Below, in pieces: positions 8,094 to 22,618 of a stretch of DNA of 64,000 nt. Numbering within the stretch: position 1 is the stretch's first letter; the number at the start of each line of letters is the position of its first letter. Both the position numbers and the translations under genes were made by a program. The stretch covers positions 260,091 to 324,090 of the forward strand of contig NZ_FNCN01000002.1 of the NCBI RefSeq assembly GCF_900100605.1, written 5' to 3'. This stretch comes from Sinosporangium album (GTDB taxonomy: Bacteria; Actinomycetota; Actinomycetes; Streptosporangiales; Streptosporangiaceae). The notes below the pieces were generated by a model. The model did no database searches, was not told where the DNA came from, and saw only the letters and a program-made list of their open reading frames with translations.

Positions 8094-9593
8094 ATGCTCC
8101 GCAGACGCGCCATGGTTGCGGGAATCACCACCGCGATCGCCGCCCTCGCCCTGGCGGCCACCCCCGCCGCCGCCGCACCGGCCGACCCGGCCGCCCAGGC
8201 GGACTCCCTCGCCCAGGCGGCCGCGGCCAAGCCCCCACCCGGCGTGATCAGCGCCATGCAGCGCGACCTCGGCCTCAACGCCGAGCAGGCCGCCACGCGA
8301 CTGCTCAACGAAGGACGCGCAAGCCGTACCGAGCCCACGCTCCGCAAGAAGATCAAAGGCGACTTCGCCGGATCATGGCTGACCGGCAAGACCGGCACCC
8401 TCGTCGTGGCCACCGTCGACCCCGCCGACACCGCCACCATCACCAAGGCCGGTGCGCAGGCCAAGGTCGTCCAGCGGAGCCTCCGCGACCTCACCAAGGT
8501 CAAGGAAGGTCTCGACGCCGCGGCCGAACACGCCAGCGTCGAGGCGCCCGTGTGGTACGTCGACGTCCAGAGCAACAGCGTCGTCGTCCTCGCCCAAGAC
8601 ACCGCCGCGGGCGACGCGTTCGTCGCGGCGAGCGGCGTCGACACGTCAGCCGTACGCGTCGTGAAGTCCGACGAGCAGCCGAAGGCGTACAACGACGTCC
8701 GAGGCGGGGACGCCTACTACATCGGCCCCTACCGCTGCTCCGTCGGCTTCTCCGTCACCCGCGGCAGCACGCCCGGCTTCGTGACCGCCGGCCACTGCGG
8801 CGACGTCGGCAACACCACCCAAGGCTTCAACCGGGTCGCCCAGGGCACCTTCGAAGGGTCGTCCTTCCCCGGCAACGACTACGCCTGGGTCTCCGTCAAC
8901 TCGCAGTGGACCCCGCGCGGCGTCGTGAACGGCTACAGCGCCGGAGAGATCGCCGTCGCCGGATCGCAGGAGCAGATCGAAGGCGCCTCCGTCTGCCGGT
9001 CCGGATCGACCACCCAGTGGCGCTGCGGCACCATCCAGCAGCGCAACACCAGCGTGACCTACCCCGAAGGCACCATCACCGGCGTCACCCGCACCAGCGC
9101 CTGCGCCGAAGGCGGCGACTCCGGCGGCTCCTACATCTCTGGCAACCAGGCTCAGGGCGTCACCTCCGGCGGATCCGGCAACTGCTCCGTCGGCGGCACC
9201 ACCTACTTCCAGCCGGTCAACGAGATCCTCAGCGTGTACGGCCTCACCCTGGTGACCAACACCGGCAACCCGCCGCCCCAGGGCTGCGCGAACTACCAGA
9301 ACCAGTACAACGGCTCCCTGACGGCCAACCAGAACGTCTACCAGCCGACCGGCGGCTCCTATACCACCACCGTCTCCGGCACCCACGCCGCCTGCCTCGA
9401 CGGTCCCGCCGGCGTCGACTTCGACCTCTACCTCCAGAGGCTCAACGGCAACACTTGGACCACCGTCGCCACCAGCAACAGCCCCAACCCTGACGAGACC
9501 ATCAGCTACAACGGCGCACCCGGCACATACCGCTACCGCGTCCACGCCTACAGCGGCTCCGGCACCTACACCCTGGGCATCAACCGGCCGTAA
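8094..9593 (+). CDS. Secreted S1 serine protease (alpha-lytic/streptogrisin type) with PPC domain
   Basis: 499 aa prepro-enzyme. A signal peptide (LRRRAMVAGITTAIAALAL...AAA) covers about residues 1-29, a pro-domain of the alpha-lytic protease type runs to about 198, and the protease follows. The catalytic triad is visible: His234 in TAGHCG, Asp262 in NDYAWV, Ser343 in GGDSGGS. A PPPQG linker leads to a C-terminal prepeptidase (PPC) beta-sandwich at about 415-499. The pro-domain is a folding chaperone cut off after secretion. A strong hairpin follows the stop, so the gene is monocistronic. Confidence 0.93.
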   Translation: MLRRRAMVAGITTAIAALALAATPAAAAPADPAAQADSLAQAAAAKPPPGVISAMQRDLGLNAEQAATRLLNEGRASRTEPTLRKKIKGDFAGSWLTGKTGTLVVATVDPADTATITKAGAQAKVVQRSLRDLTKVKEGLDAAAEHASVEAPVWYVDVQSNSVVVLAQDTAAGDAFVAASGVDTSAVRVVKSDEQPKAYNDVRGGDAYYIGPYRCSVGFSVTRGSTPGFVTAGHCGDVGNTTQGFNRVAQGTFEGSSFPGNDYAWVSVNSQWTPRGVVNGYSAGEIAVAGSQEQIEGASVCRSGSTTQWRCGTIQQRNTSVTYPEGTITGVTRTSACAEGGDSGGSYISGNQAQGVTSGGSGNCSVGGTTYFQPVNEILSVYGLTLVTNTGNPPPQGCANYQNQYNGSLTANQNVYQPTGGSYTTTVSGTHAACLDGPAGVDFDLYLQRLNGNTWTTVATSNSPNPDETISYNGAPGTYRYRVHAYSGSGTYTLGINRP

Positions 9594-9616
9594 GCCCCCC
9601 ACGGCCAGCCCATCCC

Positions 9617-9649
9617 GGCGCCGCCGCCCTTCATCGGGGCGGCGGCGCC
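9617..9649 (+). terminator. Hairpin terminator of the protease gene
   Basis: Perfect 13-bp arms (ggcgccgccgccc at 9617-9629 and its complement at 9637-9649) with a 7-nt loop, starting 24 nt after the stop codon. Confidence 0.75.
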
Positions 9650-9788
9650 CATCCACGCCCGGCACCCGCCGGGCTGTCGGCTGCCACGTTCAAGTGATCT
9701 ATCCTGTCGTCTACGCGCGGGACACGCCTCACGGCGACTATGCTCCCGTCATGCACGGTGACACAGCCGTGGCCCAGGCACACCCCCA

Positions 9789-9862
9789 GGGGCGGTAGCT
9801 CAGCCGGTCAGAGCAGCGGACTCATAATCCGTCGGTCGTGGGTTCAAGTCCCACCCGCCCTA
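9789..9862 (+). tRNA. tRNA with CAU anticodon (elongator Met likely)
   Basis: The full cloverleaf is readable. The acceptor stem GGGGCGG pairs with CCGCCCT with one G-U pair. The D arm is GCTCAGCCGGTCAGAGC, the anticodon stem GCGGA/TCCGT closes loop CTCATAA (anticodon CAT), and the T arm is GTGGG-TTCAAGT-CCCAC. No CCA is encoded. CAU could also be tRNA-Ile2; it is not an initiator, lacking the three G-C pairs GGG/CCC in the anticodon stem. It marks the left edge of a segment with gene remnants and an unusual operon. Confidence 0.93.
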
Positions 9863-10043
9863 CCCTGTTAGACCAGGCGATCCCTTGATCGTCGAGCAGG
9901 TCGTCCATGGCCGAGTCGTCCGATTTCAAGGTCATGGCAGACCATTGGCAGACCATTCGGTTCACTCATGCATCGCGGGACGCCCGTGGGATCAACGCGA
10001 CGGCCGCCTTCGCCGCGTGAGGTGGGGCCGCACCTCAACTCGA

Positions 10044-10193
10044 TGCCACGTCGCCATCGAGCCCCAGGCGGCGCAGCGCTTCGAGCGATACACGATCAAC
10101 GCCGACCATCGGATCATCGATGGCGCCCTGGCCGCGCAGTTCCTCGCCACCCTCGCCGGGCTGCTCGAACATCCACTGCGGATCCTGGCGTGA
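10044..10193 (+). pseudogene. Remnant of a 2-oxoacid dehydrogenase E2 (dihydrolipoamide acyltransferase) gene
   Basis: The last ~50 codons of an open frame starting at 9885 match the C-terminus of E2 enzymes: YTINADHRIIDGALAAQFL then LLEHPLRIL and a stop. It includes the catalytic DHRxxDG motif. The upstream part of the frame has no E2 character, and no lipoyl domain is present. The gene is therefore a 3' scrap, left just downstream of the tRNA, presumably by a deletion or insertion event. Confidence 0.7.
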
Positions 10194-10244
10194 CCCGGAT
10201 CGTATCGCCGCCTCAGGAAGACGACGCCGAGGTGTCGGCGTCTC

Positions 10245-10470
10245 CCCTCGGTGTCGAGTTTCCTGGTGTTCTTCACCGACGACCTGAATGCGACGCAGTC
10301 GGTGCTGTTCTGGCTGCTGGGCAGCCTGCCGGGCTCGTCCTGGCCGCAGGTCGCGCCGTCGGTGGGCGTCGTCGTCGCGTCGGCCGCGGCTCTGATGGCC
10401 GTCACTCCTGGCTGGACGCGCTCTCTGTCGGGGAGGGTCACCGCCAGGACATCGATTGCGGACGTCTCTA
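10245..10470 (+). pseudogene. Remnant of an iron-siderophore (FecCD) permease gene
   Basis: The frame from 10251 reads FTDDLNATQSVLFWLLGSL, then a membrane helix PSVGVVVASAAALMAV, closely resembling the middle of FecCD-type permeases (…QSVLFWLLGSL…). A neighbouring frame then supplies SWLDALSVGEGHRQDI, the continuation expected in that family (LDALSLGE...). So the fragment is internal, lacks both ends and contains a frameshift around 10410-10420. It is non-functional and was probably once full length. Confidence 0.65.
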
Positions 10471-10755
10471 ATCCACGTCCACGCCGTTTCACATCGGCGT
10501 ACCTTATCGATCTGGCGCGTTGGAAAACGACGGCCCTATCGGGGGCGTTGAGGACGGTCGGCGCGCCGGAGGGGGATGGGTTGCCCCGGGCGGGTTTGTA
10601 AGGCACTTCTGATGCGTGTGTGGTCGTTCATTGCTAATTGTCCATCGTCGTTCCAGGTAATAGGCTGGAAGGTAGATAACAATTGGGTGTTTCCCTGAAG
10701 TCAAGGCTTTCGGGGCTTATTGTCTGCGGCAGCGAGCGAAAGGCTGGGTGGACAA
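10471..10755. other. Intergenic, promoter region of the giant NTPase operon
   Basis: No gene seen. The stretch is markedly more AT-rich than its surroundings from about 10600. It contains TAGATA at 10673-10678 and GTAATAG at about 10658, either of which could belong to a promoter for the downstream operon, though no convincing -35 accompanies them. Confidence 0.35.
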
Positions 10756-13700
10756 ATGGCGCATCGTCGCGTGGAAAAGGGTGAATCTGGGCGTTCTGGG
10801 CCGCTGGGGCGTGTCCGCAGTCTCGGCTCGTTCCAGAAGGCGGCCCTGATCGTATCGGATGCGATATCCAGAATGACCGATGCCGACCTCATTACGGTCC
10901 GTACATATCCCTCTGAGCTGCGCAAGGTGATCTGGAGTCATATCGGGCTTTCCAACCCGCGCTCCGTGAGCGGCTCAGCGGCGACCGCACTGGCACGGGT
11001 GCTCAAAGGGAACGACAGCAAGCGCAGGGCCTCGCTCATCTGCGCGCTGAGCTCGTACTTCAAGCCCGCCTTCGAAAACCACGATGGGCTGTCCACGGAA
11101 GAGTGCATCAAGCTGTTCCACCGCGACAAGGCCCCCGGCATGCTGCCTCGAACGCATCTCCTGGCGCAGTTGCTGGTGGCCACCGCTCATGTCGACGAGG
11201 CTTTCATCGACCTCATACTGGCCGACATCTACCAGCATGACCTGGCTCTTTCTCCGCTGGCGCTCGCCCTGCTCGTCGGGTCCGCGGAACGCATGGGCCC
11301 GGAGGCCGGAGCGGCTGTGCGGGAGGGCTGGAGGGAACTGCGCGACCTGTATCCGGGCCTTCCCGAGCTGCCGGTCACGCTGCAGGAGTTGCGCGATGCC
11401 GTATTGTCGCCCCCTTCCGCACCGGACGACGACATCGTGAATGACGAACCCGCGGTGAACGCCGGCGGAGCCGATACCGGCACCGGCCGTCTTTCCATCG
11501 AGAAACTGCGCGAGGACCTCGACCGGTTACGTGCGACGCTGCCGGCGGCGGCGGAGGCGGCCGGACGCATCCGGCAGGCGCTGAAAGACGGTGAGCGACC
11601 ACTCGACCAGGATGTCGAAACCGTGTTGTGTGGAATCCGGGATTTCGACGATCTGCGGGGCCGGCTGGAATCTCGGCAGTCGATTTCCGACGTGGCAGTG
11701 GACACCGTGGTTGTGGATGCGGTGGCTGTGGATGCCGTGGCTGTGGATACGGTGACGGTGACGGCCGTGACGGTGGATGCCTTCCAGCGGGCTATCGACC
11801 GGCTTGACTTCGCCGACTCCCGGCGCCGGAAGATCCGGTCGTTGGCGCGCATCAGCGGACCTGCCTTCATTGAAGCGCTTCTCCAGGAAGTCCGTGAAGC
11901 CGCGCTCACCGAGTCACCCTCCTTGGAACCGTTGGCGGATCTCATCGAATTGGCCGACGATCCCGATGGTTTCCTGCAGATTTACGAGGCCGAGCAGCGC
12001 TTCCGCGAACTGGCACCGCAGAGGTGGCTGCCGTTGGCGACCGCCGCGCATCGGCGGCTGATCGTGATCGATGGCGAAGATGTGCCGGTGCCGGTGCGCG
12101 AGCCGAGTACGGCTGAACCCACGATGGCCGCGGTAACCGTTCCTGCCCCAGCCGACGACCCCGTCGAGCCCTCCTCGTCGGTGAACAGGCCACCAGAGCC
12201 GGCGCCTTCCCCGAAGCTGGACGACGGGCTGGCAGACCTTGACTCTTTCATCGAGCGGAGACTGCACCCGCAGCCCACGCAGGGGCAGAACACAGCACCG
12301 GCCGTTGAAGAGCCGCCGACGGCGAAGCACGCTCGCCCGGAAGAGCCCACCCCTGTGGTAAGGGGCCTTCCGGAAGACGAAGAAGACGACCCGGTCCCGG
12401 TCTCCCCGCCGGCTCCCGAATCTTCCCCCGACACCGCTGGCGACACTGCCACCGACACCGGCGGCGACACCGGCGGCGACACTGTGGGAGCTCTTGAAGC
12501 CGAGGCTTTCGCCCTTCGGAGCAGCCGCTTCGGGCTCGCGGCCTGGGTGCGCGACGCCGCCGGCGGTTCGGCCGCCGAAGTGAACGCCCGGAGATGCGCG
12601 GCCATCGCCGCTGAGATGAGCGAATTCGCCGGTCGGCTGTCGGCGGCGTTCGCGGAATCGGCCACCGGCCTGTCGATGAGGGCACTGGGCGACGACACGG
12701 CCGGGCAGCTACTGGCCTGGGCGGCCGCGCTGCGTGCGTGCTTGGTCCACCCGACGTCTGAGGCGGCCCAATTGCTCGATGAGCTGTCGCCGTTCTTCTC
12801 TTCGTATCCCGGATTGGCGGCGTACGGGGACGGCTTCGGCAAACTGGCCAAGGCGGGGGCCTATCTGATGCCTGGGTTGTCCGGCCGGATGTACGACACG
12901 TCGAAGGCGGAGAACAGGCGCCGCGAGGCGTCGGAGGCCGCCTCCAGGGTCCTCAGCGAAGGCCCCGCACAGACGATCAAATACGCGCCGGCGACCGATG
13001 TGTGGAAGAACCTGCTGCAGAACGACTCCTCCGGTCCGGGCCGGCTGTTGGCCGTTGCCGCCGCCGACGACGGCTCCCGCGTCCACGACGTACGGCAGGA
13101 GCTGGACAGACTTCGGGCGGGGAGCGTGATCGACCGCCTGGTCGACGAGGAGGCCAAGGCACGTGCGTCCAGGCGGGGAGGCAGCCGGATCCACTCCGGG
13201 GCCAGGGCGAGGTTGATCGCGAAGATCGACAAGACGCTGGATGTCGTCGCCGCGTGGGTGTCGGCCGTTCGCGAGCTGGAATCGTCCCGTGTCGATGACT
13301 CAGGCGTCGCGTGGGTGGTCAGACATCTGACCGACCTGCGTGCGACCGTCAACCAGAATCGGCGCCGGAGCGATGACGAGCTCGCGAGGCTGGCCGGCTC
13401 CACCGATCCGCTCGTCGCGGCAGCCGCCGCGTCCGCGGCGGCTTTGATCGGCGACACGCTGCGTCTCCTGGAGGGCGGACGGCCGCAGCGGGCGGAGTCG
13501 CCTAGCGCACATGTGCTCAACGGCGACCTTCTGCTGTCTTCGGTGGTCCGGCTCACGGTCGACACTCTCATCCCCGCAGTGAAGCCCTCGCTGGACGACC
13601 TGGCTCCGCTGTGCAGGCCGGACGGCAGGAACTGGCGGGACGCCTTCGAAGCGAGGGCCGTACTGGGGGACCATGAAGGCACTCGGGCTCTGCTCTCCGT

Positions 13701-16700
13701 GCTGACGTATGAGGATTCCGCGCTGGCCTCGGACCTGCGGCTCCGCCGCGACAAACTGGTGGACGCGGCCAGGCACGAGCGCAGCGACCGCGTCGAAGAC
13801 CTCCATGACCGCATCGCCGAATGGCGCAGGGACGGCGTGCTGCCGGAGGTCATGGCCACCCGCTTCGTCACCCGGCTCCAGGCGCTCGACAGCGACGACC
13901 GGGATGATTTCGATGTCATCGCGGATGGTCTGGCGGGATTGGAGAGGGAGGCTCTGAAGGTTCGCGACGGTGAAATGACGTCGGAGCTTGGTCTGCTGAC
14001 CACGTTGAGCGCCGAGAATGCGAACGTCGCCGCCGTCCAGGAGCGGATCAAGGTCTATATCGAGGCCGGCGATCTGACCACAGCACGTGAATTCATGGCC
14101 CAGGCGAAGGCGGGCAAGGAACTCCCGGAACTCTCCGACACCGTCGATCACCTGGAACGGTTCTTTCCCGCCTTCCCCCAGGCTTTCGAAGACATGTCGG
14201 CCGTGTGGAAGGGAGGTCAGCGCGGACGCGAAGGCGACGAGTGGCTGCAGAAGCTGAAGGACGCCCTCCACACCGGAAACGAGGTGTCGGATCCCGCACT
14301 CAGAGAGCTACTGCTCGGGGCGGGGCTGTCGGTTTCCGAGATCCCGCGCGGCCGTCGGGGGGTGGCCTCGCATGGTCTGCGCAACTGGAAGAGCATGGCG
14401 CAGGGGCCGAAGGCCGCGGGGAATCTCAAGAGTGCTCTCACCGCGGTCCTGCAAATGATCGGACTGGAGGGGGTCCAGGAGCCCGCCAACCCCGAACAGA
14501 TGCGCCAGTGGATCGCGCTGAACCAGGTGCAGAGAATCGGCGACTCCATCCTGCCCGCCTTCGGTTCCCGCATGAGCCCGGCGGGTGACCGGCTCCGGTT
14601 GCTGCTGGTGTGGAAGCCGCCCGGTCCGCAGCAGGTCATGGAGTGGCTGAAAGACCAGCCGGAGGACCAGACCGTCATCGTCTTCTACTTCGGAGTGCTG
14701 TCCGCCGAGCAGCGCCGCCAGCTGGCCGCGCTCGCCCGCAGACGGCCGACACCGGTCGCGGCGGTGCTCGACGACGCCGCGATCACGTACTTGGCCTGCG
14801 TGCCGGACGCCAACTGGGTGACGACGCAGAGGCTGCTGGCGCCGTTCACCGCGGCGAACCCGTATACGCCGATCGGCGAGGTCCCCGAGGAGATGTTCTA
14901 CGGGCGGCAGGACCAGTTGCGCGAGGTCACCAGCCCCACCGGGTCGTCGTTCGTGTACGGCGGGCGGCAGCTCGGCAAGTCCGCATTGCTGCGCAAGGCC
15001 GAGCGGAAGGTCCGGGAGACGGATTCCCACCGCACGGTGATCTCGGAGATCATTCAGAACATCGGCAAAGTCGCCAAGGTCACAGCGTTGTGGCCGATGC
15101 TGGCGGGGAGGCTTGTCGAGGCGGGTGTGCTGCCTACGAGCGTGGTCTCCCTATCGGATCCGGCGGACATCTGCCGCGAGGTCCGGGACTGGATCGACGG
15201 AGACCCGGCTCGCCAGCTCCTGATCCTGCTCGACGAGGCCGACGAATTCCTCAACCGTGACGCACGGGACGAGGCATTCGCCAACGTCATCACCATGCGC
15301 AACCTCATGAATGAGACGAACAATCGCGTCAAGGTCGTCTTCGCCGGCCTGCACCAGACCGTACGGTTCGAAAGCCTGTCCAACCAGCCGCTGGCCCACC
15401 TGGGCACGCCGATCGCCGTAGGCCCGCTCGACCCTCAGGACGCCTACGACCTGCTCACCGAGCCCTTGGCCGCGCTGGGGTTCCGGTTCCCCGCCCGTGT
15501 GGCCTCCCGGGTCATCGCGGAGGCGAACAACGCGCCGGCCCTCATCCAGTTGTTCGCCGCGGCGCTGCTCACGCGCCTGCGCAGGATCTCCACGCCGCAT
15601 GCGAAGCTTCCCTATGAGATCACGCGCCAAGACGTGGACGCCGTGTGGCGCGACAACAAGCTGGCCCGCGGGTTCCGCGACCGGTTCGAGTGGACCCTGA
15701 ACCTGGACAAGCGTTACAAGGTCATCGCCTACACGGTGGCCTTCCACGCACTCGACATGGGAACCGATGTCACCCTGACGGCCAAAGAGTTGCGCAGCGA
15801 ATGCCAGGAGTGGTGGCCCCGGGGGTTCGGCGACTCCACAAGCGACGGTTTCCGCAGCCTGCTCGACGAGTGTGTGAACCTCGGAGTGCTGGCGGCCGAC
15901 GGTGAGCGCTACCGCCTGCGCACGCCCCACATCCTCAACCTTCTAGGTGGGGCCGAGGAGGTTCAGACCATGCTGGACCAGGCGGACTCCTTCGAACTAC
16001 CCGACTCTTTCGACGCCCAGTCCTATCGTTACGCCTACAAGACCCACGGTGAACGCTCCCCGCTCACCGGCAGCCAGGTCACGCGGCTTCTCAGCCCGCG
16101 CAACGCGCTGCATCTGGTCGCCGGCTCGTATGCTCTGCAGATCGATCGGGTCGCCACCGCTCTGGAAGACGCGGCCGAGCAGCACAAGCAGGCGCAGACA
16201 CTCCGGGTCGGCGCGGGCGGCCTCACCATGGAAGGCGCGGTGCAACGGGCGGTTCAGAGCTCCAAGCACGATGTCCTGATCATCGACCTGGCCGGGCAGC
16301 CGTACAAGAAGGCCACCATGATGGCCAGGGCCGCCGCGAAGGCCATCTCCATGCAGACCAAGGGCACGCTATCGGTCACGCTGATCGCCTCTCCCCAGCA
16401 TGCGTCCGAGTGGCTCGCCACCGGTCGGCGCGTGGATGCCGGAGAGGTCGGAGATTGGACCAGCACGGCGGAACTGATCGAGCTGCAGCCGTTCAACAAG
16501 GCGGCCGTCCGGCAGTGGATGCACGAGGAGGAGCTCGGGTTCCAGGACGAACCAAGCCAGGAGGCCCTGCTGCGCATCACCGGTGGGTGGCCGCTGCTGA
16601 TCAGCAAGGTGATCCACGCGCTCAGAGGCGGCAACGCCGACCGGGATCACGCGCTTGAGGCGTGCCAGGCGCACGTGGACCAAGCGCCGGAGGAATTCGT

Positions 16701-17001
16701 CCGCTCGACCGGGGTGCTCACTGACACGGTGATCCGTACGGCGTGGCGCACGCTGGTCGAGACCGACGAATCCGACACGCCGGAGGGGCTTGCCGAGTGG
16801 TTGAACCTGGCCGCCGCGGGTGATGAAACGCACCCGCTGTCGCAGAGCGGACTCCACGAGGAGGGCTACACCTCGACCTCCGACCTGGTGGAAGTGCTGC
16901 GGATCCTCGGGGCGCTGCGCGTGCGGAGCGACGGAAGACTCCAGCCGGAGCCCGTGCTCATGAAGGCCACCCAGATGATGGGCCCGCTCGCCGATGACTG
17001 A
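10756..17001 (+). CDS. Giant STAND-like NTPase, 2081 aa, family not recognised
   Basis: Multi-domain cytosolic protein. Residues 1-190 are helical. The next ~430 include a Val-Asp repeat at 313-342, a Pro/acidic linker and a DTxGDT repeat at 559-577. A long helical region follows to ~1250. An NTPase module then opens with NPYTPIGEVPEEMFYGR, with Walker A GGRQLGKSAL at 1402-1411 and Walker B LLILLDEADEF at 1488-1498, followed by a winged helix near 1671-1733. A second, Walker-A-less NTPase-like module ends with ITGGWPLLISKVI at ~1941 and another winged helix. The ATG at 10756 is preferred (GGTGG upstream); an in-frame TTG lies at 10720. Its stop overlaps the next gene by 8 bp. Architecture suggests a STAND sensor or regulator of the nuclease encoded downstream; this is inference. 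Confidence 0.7.
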   Translation: MAHRRVEKGESGRSGPLGRVRSLGSFQKAALIVSDAISRMTDADLITVRTYPSELRKVIWSHIGLSNPRSVSGSAATALARVLKGNDSKRRASLICALSSYFKPAFENHDGLSTEECIKLFHRDKAPGMLPRTHLLAQLLVATAHVDEAFIDLILADIYQHDLALSPLALALLVGSAERMGPEAGAAVREGWRELRDLYPGLPELPVTLQELRDAVLSPPSAPDDDIVNDEPAVNAGGADTGTGRLSIEKLREDLDRLRATLPAAAEAAGRIRQALKDGERPLDQDVETVLCGIRDFDDLRGRLESRQSISDVAVDTVVVDAVAVDAVAVDTVTVTAVTVDAFQRAIDRLDFADSRRRKIRSLARISGPAFIEALLQEVREAALTESPSLEPLADLIELADDPDGFLQIYEAEQRFRELAPQRWLPLATAAHRRLIVIDGEDVPVPVREPSTAEPTMAAVTVPAPADDPVEPSSSVNRPPEPAPSPKLDDGLADLDSFIERRLHPQPTQGQNTAPAVEEPPTAKHARPEEPTPVVRGLPEDEEDDPVPVSPPAPESSPDTAGDTATDTGGDTGGDTVGALEAEAFALRSSRFGLAAWVRDAAGGSAAEVNARRCAAIAAEMSEFAGRLSAAFAESATGLSMRALGDDTAGQLLAWAAALRACLVHPTSEAAQLLDELSPFFSSYPGLAAYGDGFGKLAKAGAYLMPGLSGRMYDTSKAENRRREASEAASRVLSEGPAQTIKYAPATDVWKNLLQNDSSGPGRLLAVAAADDGSRVHDVRQELDRLRAGSVIDRLVDEEAKARASRRGGSRIHSGARARLIAKIDKTLDVVAAWVSAVRELESSRVDDSGVAWVVRHLTDLRATVNQNRRRSDDELARLAGSTDPLVAAAAASAAALIGDTLRLLEGGRPQRAESPSAHVLNGDLLLSSVVRLTVDTLIPAVKPSLDDLAPLCRPDGRNWRDAFEARAVLGDHEGTRALLSVLTYEDSALASDLRLRRDKLVDAARHERSDRVEDLHDRIAEWRRDGVLPEVMATRFVTRLQALDSDDRDDFDVIADGLAGLEREALKVRDGEMTSELGLLTTLSAENANVAAVQERIKVYIEAGDLTTAREFMAQAKAGKELPELSDTVDHLERFFPAFPQAFEDMSAVWKGGQRGREGDEWLQKLKDALHTGNEVSDPALRELLLGAGLSVSEIPRGRRGVASHGLRNWKSMAQGPKAAGNLKSALTAVLQMIGLEGVQEPANPEQMRQWIALNQVQRIGDSILPAFGSRMSPAGDRLRLLLVWKPPGPQQVMEWLKDQPEDQTVIVFYFGVLSAEQRRQLAALARRRPTPVAAVLDDAAITYLACVPDANWVTTQRLLAPFTAANPYTPIGEVPEEMFYGRQDQLREVTSPTGSSFVYGGRQLGKSALLRKAERKVRETDSHRTVISEIIQNIGKVAKVTALWPMLAGRLVEAGVLPTSVVSLSDPADICREVRDWIDGDPARQLLILLDEADEFLNRDARDEAFANVITMRNLMNETNNRVKVVFAGLHQTVRFESLSNQPLAHLGTPIAVGPLDPQDAYDLLTEPLAALGFRFPARVASRVIAEANNAPALIQLFAAALLTRLRRISTPHAKLPYEITRQDVDAVWRDNKLARGFRDRFEWTLNLDKRYKVIAYTVAFHALDMGTDVTLTAKELRSECQEWWPRGFGDSTSDGFRSLLDECVNLGVLAADGERYRLRTPHILNLLGGAEEVQTMLDQADSFELPDSFDAQSYRYAYKTHGERSPLTGSQVTRLLSPRNALHLVAGSYALQIDRVATALEDAAEQHKQAQTLRVGAGGLTMEGAVQRAVQSSKHDVLIIDLAGQPYKKATMMARAAAKAISMQTKGTLSVTLIASPQHASEWLATGRRVDAGEVGDWTSTAELIELQPFNKAAVRQWMHEEELGFQDEPSQEALLRITGGWPLLISKVIHALRGGNADRDHALEACQAHVDQAPEEFVRSTGVLTDTVIRTAWRTLVETDESDTPEGLAEWLNLAAAGDETHPLSQSGLHEEGYTSTSDLVEVLRILGALRVRSDGRLQPEPVLMKATQMMGPLADD
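11692..11781 (+). repeat. Val-Asp coding microrepeat inside the giant NTPase gene
   Basis: A run of gtg/gat-type codons built from a 12-bp unit (gtggatgcsgtg-like) encodes VDAVAVDAVAVDTVTV and further V-x-V-D units. The alternating valines would form a beta strand or amyloid-like patch in an otherwise helical region. Near-identical units make it prone to length change. Confidence 0.7.
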
Positions 17002-19021
17002 CCCGCTCCTCCCGATCCTCCAGGCAGCGGCGGAGGTGTTCCTCTCTCGTCCGGCGCTGGCGGGGGAGGAGCACGACAGGGACCGGTTCGTCTCGGACCG
17101 GCGCCAGATGATCCTGGATGCGGTGGCCACGCTCCCCGCGCTGCGCGACAGGATCCGGGAACGCCTGCATACACCCCGAAACCGGTCGGATGTGGAGGCC
17201 CTGGCCACGCTGATCCTCTCAACCGACGATGCCACCGTTCGTGCGGCCCTGCGGCTTGCCGAGCAACTCGACAGGGAGCGCCTCGCGCAGCACACTCTGC
17301 GCAAGCGGTACCAGAACAAGGTCCACGAGCTGCAGAGCAGGCTGGAGACGGCCAAAGGCCGCCACCAGCACGCCGCCGCGGCACTGGAGACCGCGCGCCA
17401 CGCGGTCACGGAGTTGGAAAAGCGGGTCGATGAGCTCGACACGCAGGTCTCGGCACTCCAGGACCGGCTCCGCGATCCGCGGGTCCTGGCCGCCAATCTG
17501 CTCGGACTGCTCCAGCAGCCGTCGCAGGAACACGACGAGGGTCCGGAGACAAGGGACCCGCGCAATCACGGCCAGCAGGACCGGCCCGCGCCTTTGGCCG
17601 CACTCGCCGCACATGCCGCCGGCATCGACCCCGAGCGTTTCCTCACCGCGCTTCAGACGCTCATCACGCCCAGGCCCACCCGGCCCCGGGTGACGGTCGT
17701 CCAGGAGCGGCGCCTGCGCGTTCACCCGCTGGGCGGTGCCAGTGAGATCGGTGGTTCCTGCCTGCTTGTCGAGGCGGGCGGGACCCGTCTTCTCGTCGAC
17801 GCGGGACTGCGGCCCGGAGACCCGGCACTCCCTCCGCGTGATATCGACGAGGCGCTGTCCGGACCGATACATGCCGTGGTGGTGACACACGCGCATACCG
17901 ATCACTGCGGATACGTCCCTGCGCTGGTCGACCGCTATCCGGAGTTACGCGTCATCGCCACGTCGGAGACCGCGCTGCTGATGCCGCAGATGTGGACAGA
18001 CTCGGCGAAGCTCATGGGCGAGCGGGAACGCCTCCACCGCCAGTGGGGTTCGTACGGCGAAGCGCTCTACCGGCGCGGCTCGGTCGAGGCCGCCGCGCGT
18101 CGGTGCGAGGAACTTCCCTACGGTGTGGAGTGCCTGATCGGCGATGTCACGGTGGAGCTGTTCCCCGCCGGCCACATTCTCGGCGCTGCCGGCGTGGTGG
18201 TCCGTGCGGGCAGTCAGCGGATCGTTGTGACGGGCGACATTTCGGGATTCCGTCAGGAGACCGTGGACGGCTACGCCATCCCGCGCTCGGCCCGAGAGGC
18301 CGATCTCCTCGTGATGGAGTCCACCTGCTGCGCCGAAGACCACGCCCCGAGGGAGACACGGGTCAACGACCTGGTCCGAGCGGTGGAGGAGGTCTACGCG
18401 GGCGGCGGGAGAGTGCTCATCCCGGCCTTCGCCCTGGGCCGTGCCCAGGAACTGGCCCTCATCATGCGTACGCACCTGCCGCACATCCCCGTGCTGGTCG
18501 ACGGCATGGCCGCCACGATCGCCTCGTCATTCGAGCGGATCACCGCACAGCACCCGTCACCTCTACGCATCTTCGGCGGAAACGTCAGTCGCGCTCAGGA
18601 CATGCGCAAGCCGATGCCGTTCACCTCCGGGGTGGTGATCACCACATCCGGCATGCTCACGGGAGGCCCGGTGATCCAGTGGGCGGCGGAAATCCTGCCG
18701 GAGCCGCACAGCGCTCTCTTCCTGTCGGGATACCAGGACGAGGAGTCGGCGGGCGCGAAACTCCTGCGCCTGGTCAAAGAGCAGGCATCCCACCTGACCG
18801 TGAACGATCACGGCATCGAACGGAACATCCCGCTTAACGCGCGCATCGACATGATGCGGCTGTCCGCTCACGCCGACAAACGAGGCCTGCTGGAGATCGC
18901 CGACGAGGTCGGCGCCCGCCAGGTCATGCTGGTCCACGGGCTCTCCCGTCGGCAGCGGGATTTCCACAAGATCCTTCAGATCCGCGGCCACGGCTTCGCG
19001 GCGACCGGCCCGTGGGCGTGA
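16994..19021 (+). CDS. Metallo-beta-lactamase/beta-CASP nuclease with N-terminal coiled coil
   Basis: 675 aa. Residues 1-230 are helical, with a heptad-rich coiled coil at about 75-165. The MBL core begins near 245 (LGGASEIGGSCLLVE). Motif 2 THAHTDH has its HxHxDH at 299-304. Motif 3 is in PAGHILGA and motif 4 in VVTGDISGF. The beta-CASP part has VMESTCC, VLIPAFALGRAQE and ITTSGMLTGGP, then SAHADKRGL and VMLVHG. All metal-binding motifs appear intact, so it should be an active CPSF-73/RNase J-like RNA (or DNA) nuclease. The coiled-coil N-terminus is unusual and may dock on the giant NTPase, with which it is translationally coupled. Confidence 0.88.
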   Translation: MTDPLLPILQAAAEVFLSRPALAGEEHDRDRFVSDRRQMILDAVATLPALRDRIRERLHTPRNRSDVEALATLILSTDDATVRAALRLAEQLDRERLAQHTLRKRYQNKVHELQSRLETAKGRHQHAAAALETARHAVTELEKRVDELDTQVSALQDRLRDPRVLAANLLGLLQQPSQEHDEGPETRDPRNHGQQDRPAPLAALAAHAAGIDPERFLTALQTLITPRPTRPRVTVVQERRLRVHPLGGASEIGGSCLLVEAGGTRLLVDAGLRPGDPALPPRDIDEALSGPIHAVVVTHAHTDHCGYVPALVDRYPELRVIATSETALLMPQMWTDSAKLMGERERLHRQWGSYGEALYRRGSVEAAARRCEELPYGVECLIGDVTVELFPAGHILGAAGVVVRAGSQRIVVTGDISGFRQETVDGYAIPRSAREADLLVMESTCCAEDHAPRETRVNDLVRAVEEVYAGGGRVLIPAFALGRAQELALIMRTHLPHIPVLVDGMAATIASSFERITAQHPSPLRIFGGNVSRAQDMRKPMPFTSGVVITTSGMLTGGPVIQWAAEILPEPHSALFLSGYQDEESAGAKLLRLVKEQASHLTVNDHGIERNIPLNARIDMMRLSAHADKRGLLEIADEVGARQVMLVHGLSRRQRDFHKILQIRGHGFAATGPWA

Positions 19022-19379
19022 CGAGTTCGCAGGTGGTGGCATCTCCTGCTCTGGGCCTGGGGGCAGCAGGAGTGCCGACGGGCGGCCGAGCCCGTGAAGG
19101 CAAATGGCGGCATCGGGAGAGTAAGGGTGTCAGCCATTGAAGGGGCACCTGTCGTCCAGACCTCGGGGGTTGGGGTCATGTGCCGGGTGGATCGGTTTGC
19201 GGGGGGTCGGGTTGCGCGTTCATCTGGTGGTCGCGGCGAAGCGGGCAGGGGTGCCGGTGCGGGGGGTGGTGTTCGAGGCGGCGCGGGAGGCGATCGGGCG
19301 GGCGTTTCCGGTGTCGGCCGAGAGTGACGGCGGGGGAGTAGCGGTCGGCGGCGGGGGATAGGGCGTTGTTGTCCTGGTC
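19022..19379. other. Gene-free stretch after the NTPase-nuclease operon
   Basis: About 360 bp without a supportable gene. Several short open frames exist on both strands, but none has a ribosome site, family resemblance or good codon pattern. The composition is G-rich on the plus strand, and no hairpin terminator stands out. Confidence 0.5.
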
Positions 19380-19755
19380 CAATGAGTCGGAGGGGCACGG
19401 GTTGCCGATGCTGTGCTCGGGCGGTGGCCGGGTGGCGGGGCCAGCCGGTACGGCTGTCGCTCACCGGAGGCCGCGACAGCCGTCTGCTCGCCGCGCTGCT
19501 GAACAAAGCCGGCATCCTCTTCGTGGCGGCGACCTCGGGGCACGACAACGACCCTGACGTGGTGCTCGCCGGGCGGGTCGCGGAGGCGCTCGGCGTCGAG
19601 CATCGCGGTCGGCGTGGCGCGGCTCTCGGAGTCGCGGATGGACGCCTTCTGGCACCTGTACACGGTGTCGGTGATGCTGTCGGACGCTTTTTCCACCCCC
19701 ACCGCGCCGGATCTTCCGCCTTTGCACGTCCCCACACCGGGTTCCGGCCGCTGAC
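19380..19755 (+). pseudogene. Remnant of an asparagine-synthase-like gene
   Basis: The frame around 19440-19605 reads VRLSLTGGRDSRLLAALL and TSGHDNDPDVVLAGRVAEALG. This is the PP-loop (SGGxDS) and following strand of asparagine-synthase C-terminal domains. It then shifts frame: the continuation SRMDAFWHLYTVSVMLSDAF lies in another frame and hits a stop near 19755. The N-terminal amidotransferase part and most of the synthase domain are missing. A degraded scrap, convergent with the S1-domain gene. Confidence 0.65.
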
Positions 19756-19775
19756 GGCCGGGCGGCGGCGCCCGG

Positions 19776-20300
19776 TCAGTGCCTCTGGCCGTTCACCTGG
19801 ACGAGGTCGAGTCTGACGCGTCGGTGGATGAGATTGATCTCGCGGATGCGGAACGTGAGGCTCCGGCCTTCGGCGGGCAGCCGTCCCATGGGGAAATGGG
19901 AGACGTGTATCAACCCCTCGACGCCTTCCGCCACCGCCACGAAGGCGCCGAACGGAACGACCCTCGTGACGGGCCCGGTCACGACATCGCCGAGACGGGT
20001 GCGCGCGATCTCCACCAACGGGTCGGCCTGCAGAGCTTTCAGCGACAGGGACAACCGTTCACGGTCGAGGTCGACGTCGAGGACCATGACGACGACTTCC
20101 TGGCCGACTTCGACGATTTCCGACCAGTCGTCGAAATGGCGCCATGTCAGCTCGGCCGCGTTCACCAGGCCGTCGGCGCCGCCGAGGTCCACGAACACGC
20201 CGAACCGCTCGATGGAGGTCACAACCCCTTGACGAACCTGTCCTGGTTCGAGGGTGCCCAGAAACTCAATGACTGTTTCGGACTTCCTTTTTTTAACCAT
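19776..20300 (-). CDS. Two-domain S1 RNA-binding protein, truncated RpsA paralogue
   Basis: 174 aa from ATG 20300 (MVKKRKSETVIEFL); the frame extends further but without coding character. Residues about 17-85 and 100-165 are two S1 OB-folds. The first, GQVRQGVVTSIERFGVFVDLGG, and the linker VDLDRERLSLSLKALQADP closely resemble the third and fourth S1 repeats of ribosomal protein S1. It thus looks like an excised middle of rpsA rather than the ribosomal protein, which has four or more repeats. Probably binds RNA; no Shine-Dalgarno is obvious. Confidence 0.8.
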   Translation of the reverse strand: MVKKRKSETVIEFLGTLEPGQVRQGVVTSIERFGVFVDLGGADGLVNAAELTWRHFDDWSEIVEVGQEVVVMVLDVDLDRERLSLSLKALQADPLVEIARTRLGDVVTGPVTRVVPFGAFVAVAEGVEGLIHVSHFPMGRLPAEGRSLTFRIREINLIHRRVRLDLVQVNGQRH

Positions 20301-20742
20301 CGTGCGCTTGACATTAGATGGTGGTTTCCCGTTGGGCAAGACGTCCGCGGGGTTTTCGGCGCAGGCTCCGGCGCCCGGTGGCCGACACCCCGCAACACCG
20401 CCGGGCATGCCTTCTGGGCTGCGGCGATTCGGTGTTCCTACGGCCGAACCCCCAGGCAGGGGAGGGGTTCGGTGGCTCTCGCCTGCGGTTATGTCGGGGA
20501 ATTCCAGATGAACGCCGGCAGCCCTCGTTCTTGAGGTGGAGGGCCACTTCCGCAGTCCAGGGAATTGTTTCTCGTTATCCGGCCGGAGACCGTGCGGGGT
20601 TGCCGCTAGGCTGCGGGCCATCAGTGTCGGCATGGGGCCGGTGCAGGTGGAACGTGCCGATTCGTAGAAAGGCCGTGGAAAGGCCGTCGGACAAGCCTGC
20701 CGGGTGTCCCGGGCCGGAATAGAGAAAAGGATGGGAGCCCCC
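20301..20742. other. Divergent intergenic region between S1-like and lipoprotein genes
   Basis: About 440 bp. I see no gene. It should hold the outward promoters of the S1-like gene and of the lipoprotein gene; an AT-richer patch lies at 20285-20320 next to the S1-like start. Confidence 0.4.
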
Positions 20743-21207
20743 GTGAGAGGTCTGCGCTCGGCCGTGGTCGCTGTGGTCGCCGTGGGTGCGGTGTTCGGCT
20801 TGGTGGCCTGTGGAGCCGACTCGCTCGACGGCGCCGCCGTCGTGGAGGGGTTCTCCAAGAAGGGGCTGCCGGCCACGGCGACGGTCACCTTCACGGCTGA
20901 GACCGACCCCGAGAAGCTGCTGGGGCAGTCCGGTGGTTACGAGAGCAAGGTGGCTTTCGCGGATGAGCGCGCTGCGCGGAAGGCGCTCGGGTCGAAGCAG
21001 GGTGACGTGGTGGCGGGGGGACATGTGGAGGTCTTCCCCAACGAGGACGCCGCGGGTGCCCGTCTCGACCGGCTCTTGAAGGTGGCCAAGATAACGGGCA
21101 AGGAATACGTGTTCTCGTGGGGCACCGTTGTCGTCCGTCTTTCGCCGGAGCTGACGTCGGAGCAGGCGGACAAGTACATCGCGACCCTCAAGCAGATCGT
21201 GGGATAG
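20743..21207 (+). CDS. Small secreted lipoprotein of unknown function
   Basis: 154 aa. The N-terminus VRGLRSAVVAVVAVGAVFGLVACGAD has a positively charged start, a hydrophobic core and the lipobox LVAC, so Cys is predicted to be lipid-modified after cleavage and the protein anchored outside the membrane. The rest is an alpha/beta domain with no motif I recognise. The GTG at 20743 is favoured by GGGAG 5 nt upstream; ATG 20731 is an alternative. It stands alone between regulatory regions. Confidence 0.75.
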   Translation: MRGLRSAVVAVVAVGAVFGLVACGADSLDGAAVVEGFSKKGLPATATVTFTAETDPEKLLGQSGGYESKVAFADERAARKALGSKQGDVVAGGHVEVFPNEDAAGARLDRLLKVAKITGKEYVFSWGTVVVRLSPELTSEQADKYIATLKQIVG

Positions 21208-21397
21208 GGGGTCACCCAAGGGATAACTGCGATGTGTGTGATACACCGTGATTTGACACCCCAAAACACACATCAAGGGCATGAACTTCCAGCTCTATAA
21301 CCGACGTATCCCGATTCAATAGATTTCTCTTGAGTCAAGGGAAGCGCTGTGATAATCCCGTCTGGGAAGCCGACCTGCGGCTTCTTCAGAGGGAGGC

Positions 21398-22618
21398 GTG
21401 TTGAGCCGGTGGTCGCTCGCCCCGTCATGGCTCGCGAGTGACCCCGCCGTGGGGTCCGGCGGCGTCGTGGCCGCAACCGAGCTGCGCATGGTGCGCATGC
21501 TCGCGTTCGTGCGGGCCGGAACGGCGGGTTTCGTCTATGTCCCGTTGATCAGTTGGAACAGGCTGGCGCTCCCCTGGCTCGCCCTCGCGGTGGCGATCGC
21601 CGCCAGCCTGCACTCGGCGTGGTTCGTCTGGTGGTCGCGGCGGGTGAAGACCCCGAGCGACCCGGTGCTCGTCTGGAGCGACGTGGCCGTGGCCGTCGTG
21701 TTCATGCTGGTCGGTTCGCGCGCCGCCCCCGACCTCGCGAGGAATCTGCTCATGACGCCGCTGGTGCCGTACAGCCTGGTGACGTCGGCGGTGCTGGGAT
21801 TCAGCGCGCGGCGCAGCATGGCGCCGGTCCTCGCGGTCGCGGGTCTGATGGCAACCTGGGTCATCTCGCTGTATCCGGACTACGGGCAGAAGCTTGGTTC
21901 TGACCTGCTGGGATTTGTCATGTGGTATCTCGTGGCGTTTCTCATCGGCCGCGAAATGCTGAACCTCGCGCGCCAGGCCGACATCGCCACCGCCCGCGCC
22001 GAACGCAGCCAGAAAATGCTGGCGGAACGTGCCATCCACAACAAGCTCCTGCCCATCATCGAACGTGTCGCCCAAGGGGGCGAGCTCGGTGAGAACGTCT
22101 CCAAAGCTGCACGCAAGGCGGCGATCCTGGGCAGGGCGTTCCTCGGCGACCGCAGGCACGGACCGCCGCCCACGTTCGAGGCCACGCTGAAGGACGCCGT
22201 GGAGGGCGTCGCCGCGCTCGGCCTCACCGTCAGGACACGCTTTCTCCTCGCCGCCGATCCGCCGCCGGAGATCGCCGAGGTGTTCGCCACAGCGGTCGGC
22301 GAGGCCCTCAACAACGCCCGCCGCCACGCCGGCCCGGCCGTCCTCGTGGAGGTCCAGGCCGACTCCGGCCCCGACTGGCTGGACATCACCGTCATCGACG
22401 ACGGGTACGGCTTCGACCCCGAGCAAGTCGCGCCCGGGCTCGGGTTCACCGGCGTCTACGCGGAGGTGCGCGCCCTCGGCGGTGAATGCTTCATCACCGC
22501 GTCCCCCGGCGAGGGCACCTCGGTGACTCTGCACTGGGAGCCCCGGCCTGTCCGTGACATCGGCGGCATCGGCGGCATCGGGGACGGCGCGGCGGGCGCG
22601 GCGGGTGCGGACACGTGA
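21398..22618 (+). CDS. Membrane sensor histidine kinase
   Basis: 406 aa. About five hydrophobic segments fill residues 30-190. A short dimerisation helix follows with the candidate phospho-acceptor His in ERAIHNKLLPIIE, then a HATPase_c domain: N-box EALNNARRHA, G1 box DDGYGFDP, G2 box GEGTSVTLHW. The C-terminus is a low-complexity GGIGG/GAAGAAG tail. The start is GTG 21398 or the next codon TTG 21401, close behind GAGGGAGG. Its stop overlaps the response regulator start (GTGA), so the two form a coupled two-component operon. The stimulus is unknown. Confidence 0.85.
   Translation: MLSRWSLAPSWLASDPAVGSGGVVAATELRMVRMLAFVRAGTAGFVYVPLISWNRLALPWLALAVAIAASLHSAWFVWWSRRVKTPSDPVLVWSDVAVAVVFMLVGSRAAPDLARNLLMTPLVPYSLVTSAVLGFSARRSMAPVLAVAGLMATWVISLYPDYGQKLGSDLLGFVMWYLVAFLIGREMLNLARQADIATARAERSQKMLAERAIHNKLLPIIERVAQGGELGENVSKAARKAAILGRAFLGDRRHGPPPTFEATLKDAVEGVAALGLTVRTRFLLAADPPPEIAEVFATAVGEALNNARRHAGPAVLVEVQADSGPDWLDITVIDDGYGFDPEQVAPGLGFTGVYAEVRALGGECFITASPGEGTSVTLHWEPRPVRDIGGIGGIGDGAAGAAGADT

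Follow-up and report, generated by a model that had tools for sequence, protein, structure and literature searches.

A giant STAND/ORC-class ATPase paired with a beta-CASP nuclease in Sinosporangium album: a probable two-gene defence module

The analyzed window is a stretch of 64,000 nucleotides from Sinosporangium album (contig NZ_FNCN01000002.1, positions 260,091 to 324,090) with a high GC content and relatives among the actinomycetes. It contains two overlapping genes, one for a giant ATPase of the STAND/ORC class and one for a metallo-beta-lactamase (MBL)/beta-CASP nuclease. The giant and the nuclease were found to be a real unit, a stable operon that recurs across actinomycete genomes. 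The pair is probably an NTPase switch that gates a ribonuclease, probably in anti-phage defence, a two-gene module of the immune type. Its mode of action appears to be that of a STAND immune switch. Membership of AVAST type 1 could be rejected, and the copy in the window is not a DISARM system. The two genes are:

10756..17001, + strand: giant STAND/ORC-class ATPase (P0001), 2,081 aa from ATG, family alignment of 88 giants
16994..19021, + strand: coiled-coil beta-CASP nuclease (P0002), 675 aa, overlapping the giant gene by 8 bp

This arrangement agrees with the initial annotation of the window. The nuclease ATG is at 16994 and the giant stop codon TGA at 16999-17001. For the giant, the open reading frame (ORF) tool picks an earlier TTG start at 10720, resulting in 2,093 aa.

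Pairing and distribution of the two genes

For the analysis of related loci, GTDB genomes were scanned with an alignment of 12 giants. The best 80 of 563 relatives resulted in 79 loci, so that the group counts given for these loci are not frequencies. Genes in unannotated loci were called with a simple in-house caller. A close relative of the beta-CASP nuclease was located directly downstream of the giant in 34 of the 79 loci. Tblastn identified 33 of these nucleases; L070 was considered as a pair lacking the nuclease, which was rejected since tblastn had missed an intact in-frame gene there. In 33 of the 34 pair loci an in-frame nuclease start overlaps the giant stop by 4 bp, the start nearest to this position being chosen.

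In a tree of the giant core (88 rows) the pair giants form one clade (36 rows, SH-aLRT 100). The tree was calculated with a quick method and rooted for drawing only; L059 and L099 (ORF of 750 aa) were excluded, and in L054 and L062 the giant runs into a contig end. Identity in the giant core correlates with identity in the nuclease (r 0.93 for 561 sequence pairs, which are not independent).

In the family sample the nuclease was found in 35 of 297 genomes (13 of 68 genera) and the giant in 40 of 297 (17 of 68 genera). The giant is also present in 32 of the 35 nuclease carriers, in 30 of them on the same contig and in 2 on different contigs. The remaining three are G257, with a partial nuclease gene beside a short piece of the giant, G295, in which only the end of the nuclease gene is left, and G128, where a 41%-identical nuclease sits in another, DISARM-linked operon without a giant. 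A beta-CASP gene that usually occurs free of the giant was therefore rejected, G257 and G295 being remnants and G128 a distinct DISARM-linked form. In the class sample the nuclease was found in 10 of 394 genomes (E ≤ 1e-60) and the giant in 15 of 394 (E ≤ 1e-20); in all 10 nuclease carriers a giant shares the contig with the nuclease. Six of these 10 carriers, including the genome of the window, also belong to the family sample. Two findings named in the initial annotation as speaking against a defence role, presence in every related genome and a nuclease usually lacking its NTPase, were thus not observed.

The distribution is patchy even inside genera. G001, from the same genus as the window, is without the pair, and in genus g5 the pair is absent from G005 and present in G180, G230 and G245. 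G162 carries two pairs.

The tight overlap and the stable pairing would also suit a toxin-control pair that maintains itself or its replicon, with the giant restraining a toxic RNase, and 27 plasmid records match the giant. We consider this explanation very improbable, as an ATPase of 2,081 aa would be an unusual antitoxin and the DISARM and pPIWI-RE contexts described below would be left unexplained.

Domain architecture of the ATPase and the nuclease

The following parts could be distinguished within the two proteins, all on the + strand:

10756..12510, +: variable N-terminal region, giant aa 1-585; lowest conservation among pair giants
12508..14460, +: helical region, giant aa 585-1235; AlphaFold2 model
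14818..15555, +: P-loop NTPase domain, STAND/ORC fold, giant aa 1355-1600; AAA_22, model and fold match
14959..14982, +: Walker A GGRQLGKS, giant aa 1402-1409; sequence and family alignment
15217..15237, +: Walker B LLILLDE, giant aa 1488-1494; sequence and family alignment
15703..15960, +: winged-helix-like region, giant aa 1650-1735; model secondary structure, fold alignment to aa ~1746
16024..16626, +: alpha/beta module without P-loop, giant aa 1757-1957; model, hhalign negative
16994..17698, +: helical/coiled-coil N-terminus, nuclease aa 1-235; coiled-coil matches, lower conservation
17711..18979, +: MBL, beta-CASP and RMMBL domains of CPSF73/TTHA0252 type, nuclease aa 240-662; profile and PDB matches
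17888..17905, +: motif 2 HAHTDH of the metal site, nuclease aa 299-304; H, H, D, H in 35 of 35 sequences

The sole recognizable Pfam domain of the giant is AAA_22 (E 1.3e-5; 26 bits, cut-off 27). No PADLOC or NCBIfam model matched it at E ≤ 0.1, and no relative was found in a PDB sequence search at E ≤ 1. The Walker A and B motifs are intact as previously annotated: none of the 88 aligned giants deviates at the G, G, G, K and D positions, the residue next to the Walker A lysine is S or T in 88 of 88, and E1494 is kept in 87 of 88.

The model of aa 1196-2081 (67 sequences; pLDDT 91.7, pTM 0.88) begins with an alpha/beta domain that precedes the NTPase; the NTPase carries a winged-helix-like region, and the C-terminus forms a further alpha/beta module that also contains helices. 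Fold comparison of aa 1355-1746 (Foldseek, VIA-align) revealed matches to 2qen (Z 20.0), ORC2 (19.5), the NRC4 resistosome (17.9) and CED-4 (17.0). The fold neighbours include the archaeal ATPases 2qen and 2fna, ORC/Cdc6, plant resistosomes, CED-4 and Apaf-1, and also TnsC and MuB. By its modelled structure the NTPase is a member of the STAND/ORC class with the nucleotide-binding, helical and winged-helix fold seen in NB-ARC/CED-4, which is consistent with the STAND-like assignment made initially. Its sub-family is left open, since ORC and NLR rows rank alike in the fold search.

Of the winged helices annotated, one winged-helix-like region is present in the model, following the NTPase. The second NTPase-like module has a strand order (aa ~1757-1957) compatible with a P-loop-less NTPase and no Walker A lysine, but hhalign detected no similarity to the first NTPase of the giant. 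It is possibly a degenerate NTPase; the assignment therefore stays a guess from strand order. A helical N-terminal region of more than 1,200 residues had also been proposed; within the extent of the model helices are predicted for aa 585-1235 (pLDDT 88.8, pTM 0.68). The conservation among pair giants, in blocks of 60 residues, was 0.23-0.48 over aa 1-600 vs. 0.59-0.76 over aa 1261-1800. The low conservation of the N-terminus would fit a fast-evolving sensing part, and aa 1-585 are a candidate sensor.

The giant resembles STAND sensors (Avs, bNACHT, plant NLR/Apaf-1-like) in its P-loop NTPase with winged helix, its large variable extra region and its nuclease output. In contrast to these, its NTPase lies behind ~1,350 residues, its effector is encoded by a separate gene that differs between branches, and it is matched by no PADLOC model.

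The nuclease contains the Pfam domains Lactamase_B, Beta-Casp and RMMBL. As annotated, all metal motifs are present: none of the 35 nuclease sequences lacks a metal or catalytic residue of motifs 1-4, A, B or C, and motif C is His. The catalytic part is conserved at 0.70 compared to 0.41-0.48 in the N-terminal 235 residues, which are a candidate docking part. The nearest solved relatives include archaeal CPSF, TTHA0252, INTS11, CPSF73 and the type VII Cas14. In the PADLOC search the nuclease gave only weak cross-matches to JetC/LmuB.

The catalytic domains of aCPSF1/FttA, TTHA0252, CPSF73 and INTS11 align over aa ~240-660 of P0002. These enzymes, unlike the proposed effector, act in RNA processing or termination. 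To our knowledge, no pairing of aCPSF1/CPSF73-type enzymes with a STAND giant is known. The combination of giant and beta-CASP nuclease was also not found in a literature search by title and abstract start, which left most subscription papers outside its coverage, so that an earlier description is possible.

According to the MTH1203 study, His at motif C is linked to RNA substrates and Val to DNA (PMC3095777). The enzyme class, with its motif C His, and the HEPN-type partners of another giant branch (see below) point to RNA as the likely substrate. In type VII CRISPR-Cas, the beta-CASP protein Cas14 is described as an RNA-cutting defence effector (PMC10910872), which indicates that a beta-CASP nuclease can serve in this role. 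The NCBIfam Cas14 model matches P0002 with E 8.9e-56 and 189.5 bits (cut-off 800), and the aCPSF1 model with 196.5 bits (cut-off 580.2). Assignment of P0002 to type VII Cas14 was rejected because its score lies below the NCBIfam equivalog cut-off. Moreover, P0002 has a coiled-coil N-terminus vs. the Cas10-like C-terminal adaptor of Cas14, and its partner is a STAND-type giant.

The kinship to an AVAST type 1 system suggested by the initial annotation did not hold. Avs1a of AVAST type 1 is described as an MBL pro-nuclease that a trypsin-like protease converts to its active form (PMC12799240). Both systems combine a STAND NTPase with an MBL-fold nuclease gene, whereas the nuclease here is a CPSF73-type beta-CASP enzyme with RMMBL and the operon contains no protease. 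Together with the missing PADLOC match of P0001, this led to the rejection of AVAST type 1 membership. The only protease noticed near the window pair is encoded at 8094-9593 (alpha-lytic type prodomain), beyond the tRNA next to the locus, and is also present in G001, which is without the pair; the protease search was not extended to other pair loci.

Exchanged partners and defence neighbours

The nuclease partner was found to differ between the branches of the giant family, which ranges over actinomycetes, cyanobacteria, proteobacteria, Acidobacteriota, Salinibacter and Latescibacterota. Group B comprises 14 loci, 11 of them among the 79, and encodes a protein of 380-500 aa downstream of the giant. 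Its C-terminus carries RNxxxH in 14 of 14 loci (RNxLAH in 11), which we take to be the HEPN pattern. Weak, sub-threshold Pfam HEPN matches were obtained for two of three partners scanned, and the family is likely a HEPN RNase below the Pfam thresholds. It occurs across phyla (L005 15024-16157, L017 12156-13310 and 12 further loci), with a length of ~400 aa and a start that is conserved near LPGP. On the giant tree the members of group B do not form a single clade; five changes are needed.

In group C (27 of the 79 loci and two plasmids) a protein of roughly 700-800 aa (548-1,035 by the in-house caller) is encoded upstream of the giant. The single member scanned of this family (L102 5748-8183 and 28 other loci) had no Pfam or PADLOC match. 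A protein of ~2,000 aa lies further upstream in 21 of 29 group C loci; the single one scanned comprises a DEDDh exonuclease and DinG-like and DpdF-like helicase parts. The partner in group D (cyanobacteria; 2 of the 79 loci and one plasmid) is a phospholipase D (PLD)-SNF2 helicase. One Azospirillum plasmid encodes the giant with a pPIWI-RE three-gene island of the kind described in PMC3702460. The island is directly upstream of the giant (L006 658-16607), and giant aa 47-106 match the end of the RNaseH_pPIWI_RE profile, as if the domain were split between two genes. Five of the 79 loci, some cut by contig ends, could not be assigned to the pair group or to groups B-D. On a Euzebya plasmid an 896-aa protein is encoded after the giant (L018 11301-13988), for which only a weak TPR match was obtained.

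DISARM genes beside the pair provide a link to defence. The published components of DISARM are a methylase, DrmA, DrmB, the PLD nuclease DrmC and the auxiliary DrmD/DrmE, and the nuclease step is called a mystery (PMC9142583). In 5 of the 34 pair loci the pair is followed by DrmA (L063, L064 and L065 from Nocardia, L068 from Kutzneria, and L069), with PADLOC E-values of 9e-103 and 1e-97 in the two loci scanned. DrmE_C was identified in a 790-aa gene of L063 and a divergent 797-aa gene of L068, with relatives in L064, L065 and L069. DrmB follows in L068 (E 2e-39), and for L065 the genome shows the further gene order DrmA, DrmB-type gene, PLD protein and DNA methylase. A DrmB search gave matches in 7 of 10 pair genomes: in the five DISARM loci DrmB adjoins the DrmA of the pair, and in the genomes of L066 and L067 it lies elsewhere, away from the pair. 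The DrmA proteins of the Nocardia loci share only 31-33% identity with the L068 protein, and the genes are arranged in a different order, which suggests more than one joining event of the pair with DISARM. In L067 a Wadjet JetABC set is located just upstream of the pair.

Neither the giant nor the beta-CASP nuclease is named in the passages of PMC9142583 consulted, and the pair in the window stands alone. The window copy was rejected as a DISARM system, as DrmA, DrmB and the methylase were not found beside it; they are present, fully or partly, in L063, L064, L065, L068 and L069. In the genome of the window a DISARM-like cluster with a DrmA-type helicase (E 1e-41) was observed at L202 (G000:C50:384000-403900); genes of ~640 aa and ~250 aa and a large gene in it are putatively of the DrmB, DrmC and methylase types. 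In another operon (L172, G128:C16:36500-56000) an 885-aa beta-CASP gene precedes DrmE_C and DrmA genes; an Mrr-type gene is adjacent, and the giant is missing.

This context would allow a different reading, a DISARM-type accessory in which an ORC/TnsC-like giant on invading DNA or R-loops recruits the beta-CASP nuclease against DNA or nascent RNA. The fold matches include ORC/Cdc6, TnsC and MuB; the DISARM, DinG-helicase and pPIWI-RE partners are related to DNA or R-loops; and a related beta-CASP occurs with DrmE-DrmA genes in the absence of the giant. We nevertheless regard it as unlikely, since motif C is of the RNA type, the HEPN-type partners of another branch point to RNA, and 29 of the 34 pair loci have no DrmA within the sequence examined, some being cut by contig ends.

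A non-immune function in RNA surveillance or stress-induced mRNA decay, in which the giant would regulate the RNase in an ATP-dependent manner, would agree with the RNA-processing enzymes among the nearest solved relatives, with the ordinary appearance of the sampled non-DISARM neighbours and with the flanking genes common to some loci. It seems quite improbable for a nuclease carried by only 35 of 297 family genomes, two of them with remnants, for a giant whose partner nuclease differs between branches, and for a pair that adjoins DISARM genes at five loci. A switch with an effector fits better than housekeeping RNA processing because of the stable pairing, the patchiness, the decay, the exchanged nucleases and the DISARM and pPIWI-RE company.

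In this switch-plus-effector mechanism, the giant would be a STAND-type switch that is driven by ATP and carries a long helical region, evolving fast, at its N-terminus, and the beta-CASP protein a dedicated effector, a zinc-dependent endoribonuclease held via its coiled-coil N-terminus. The giant would sense a product or a nucleic-acid structure of the invader; ATP binding would rearrange or oligomerize it and thereby release or recruit the RNase, which would cut RNA and stop the infection. The DISARM operons of some actinomycetes would have gained this pair as an additional effector arm. We infer RNA as the substrate, the coiled-coil docking, the activation by the ATPase, the trigger, the cell outcome and, for the host of the window, the anti-phage function.

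Several observations weigh against an immune switch. In the protein itself, fold searches with giant aa 585-1235 gave no significant match (best E 0.69, best Z 7.0), the C-terminal module showed no hhalign kinship to the NTPase, and the longest giant ORF of L059 has 989 aa, its frame being broken or misread. No giant was found among 50,697 phage records. An upstream gene is common to five Streptosporangiaceae loci and a downstream gene to six Actinomadura loci, so that the distribution seems to be partly vertical, with the pair at a fixed site. The lack of DrmA at most pair loci also counts here; in addition, no DrmA/B/E, PLD or methylase query matched next to the window pair at E ≤ 1e-15, and the DISARM-like cluster of this genome is on a different contig. 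Outside the DISARM group a convincing excess of defence genes among the neighbours was not observed. The most frequent PADLOC families, mostly PD-T4-6/C3a189 kinase-type models, were matched by 5 of 110 neighbour proteins and 3 of 110 controls, and in all 69 families were matched vs. 42. For the neighbours, 110 proteins were drawn out of 178 eligible ones in 27 of the 29 non-DISARM pair loci (L042 and L044 were left out), and the controls were 110 of 132 proteins from 20 arbitrary stretches.

On balance, the pair is probably a little-known modular defence system. We see about an even chance that the STAND-type ATPases of ~2,000 aa are a previously undescribed family acting as a common immune switch with exchangeable, unrelated nuclease modules (CPSF73-type beta-CASP RNase, HEPN RNase, PLD-SNF2 helicase, exonuclease-DinG-helicase, pPIWI-RE) that can be plugged into DISARM; the output in the window would be RNA cleavage by a relative of the nuclease that processes mRNA 3′-ends. 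If so, a widespread ATPase family that is absent from the PADLOC release searched would join bacterial immunity with branch-specific nuclease outputs, and a CPSF73-type ribonuclease with a STAND switch would be placed beside DISARM. The exchange of partners offers a direct test of what is retained in the giant when the nuclease changes, and of whether the nuclease of one branch can be driven by the giant of another.

The chromosomal site in the window

The tRNA gene annotated beside the locus could be found at the left edge of a variable site:

9789..9864, + strand: tRNA-Met, left edge of the variable site; tRNA call and comparison with G001

In G001 both flanks of the window locus are located on one contig, 32.8 kb apart compared to 11.3 kb in the window, with other genes between them. 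The site beside the tRNA-Met is variable, and the comparison shows a rearrangement and not a clean insertion. For the mobile defence locus of the initial annotation, the variable site and a defence link through DISARM genes are supported, but signs of mobility were missing: no duplicated tRNA end or att repeat was found in 9000-22000, no mobility gene near the pair, and no integrase domain in nine flanking ORFs scanned; flanking genes are, moreover, common to several relatives. The same Pfam scan of these nine ORFs detected no Cas protein, without a search aimed at Cas5/Cas7. Predicted promoters and terminators were no more frequent than in shuffled sequences.

The locus had also been described as lying between decayed genes. 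This applies to the left flank, where fragments of two ordinary genes, for a 2-oxoacid dehydrogenase acyltransferase and for a FecCD permease, lie at 9885-10601 between the tRNA and the giant. The 2-oxoacid_dh fragment covers the last 39 profile positions but one, and the FecCD match is below the cut-off. On the right flank, a fragment at 19382-19816 was read as asparagine synthase, but no Pfam match was found there. An asparagine synthase gene is present between the same flanks in G001 (L200 8359-10200).

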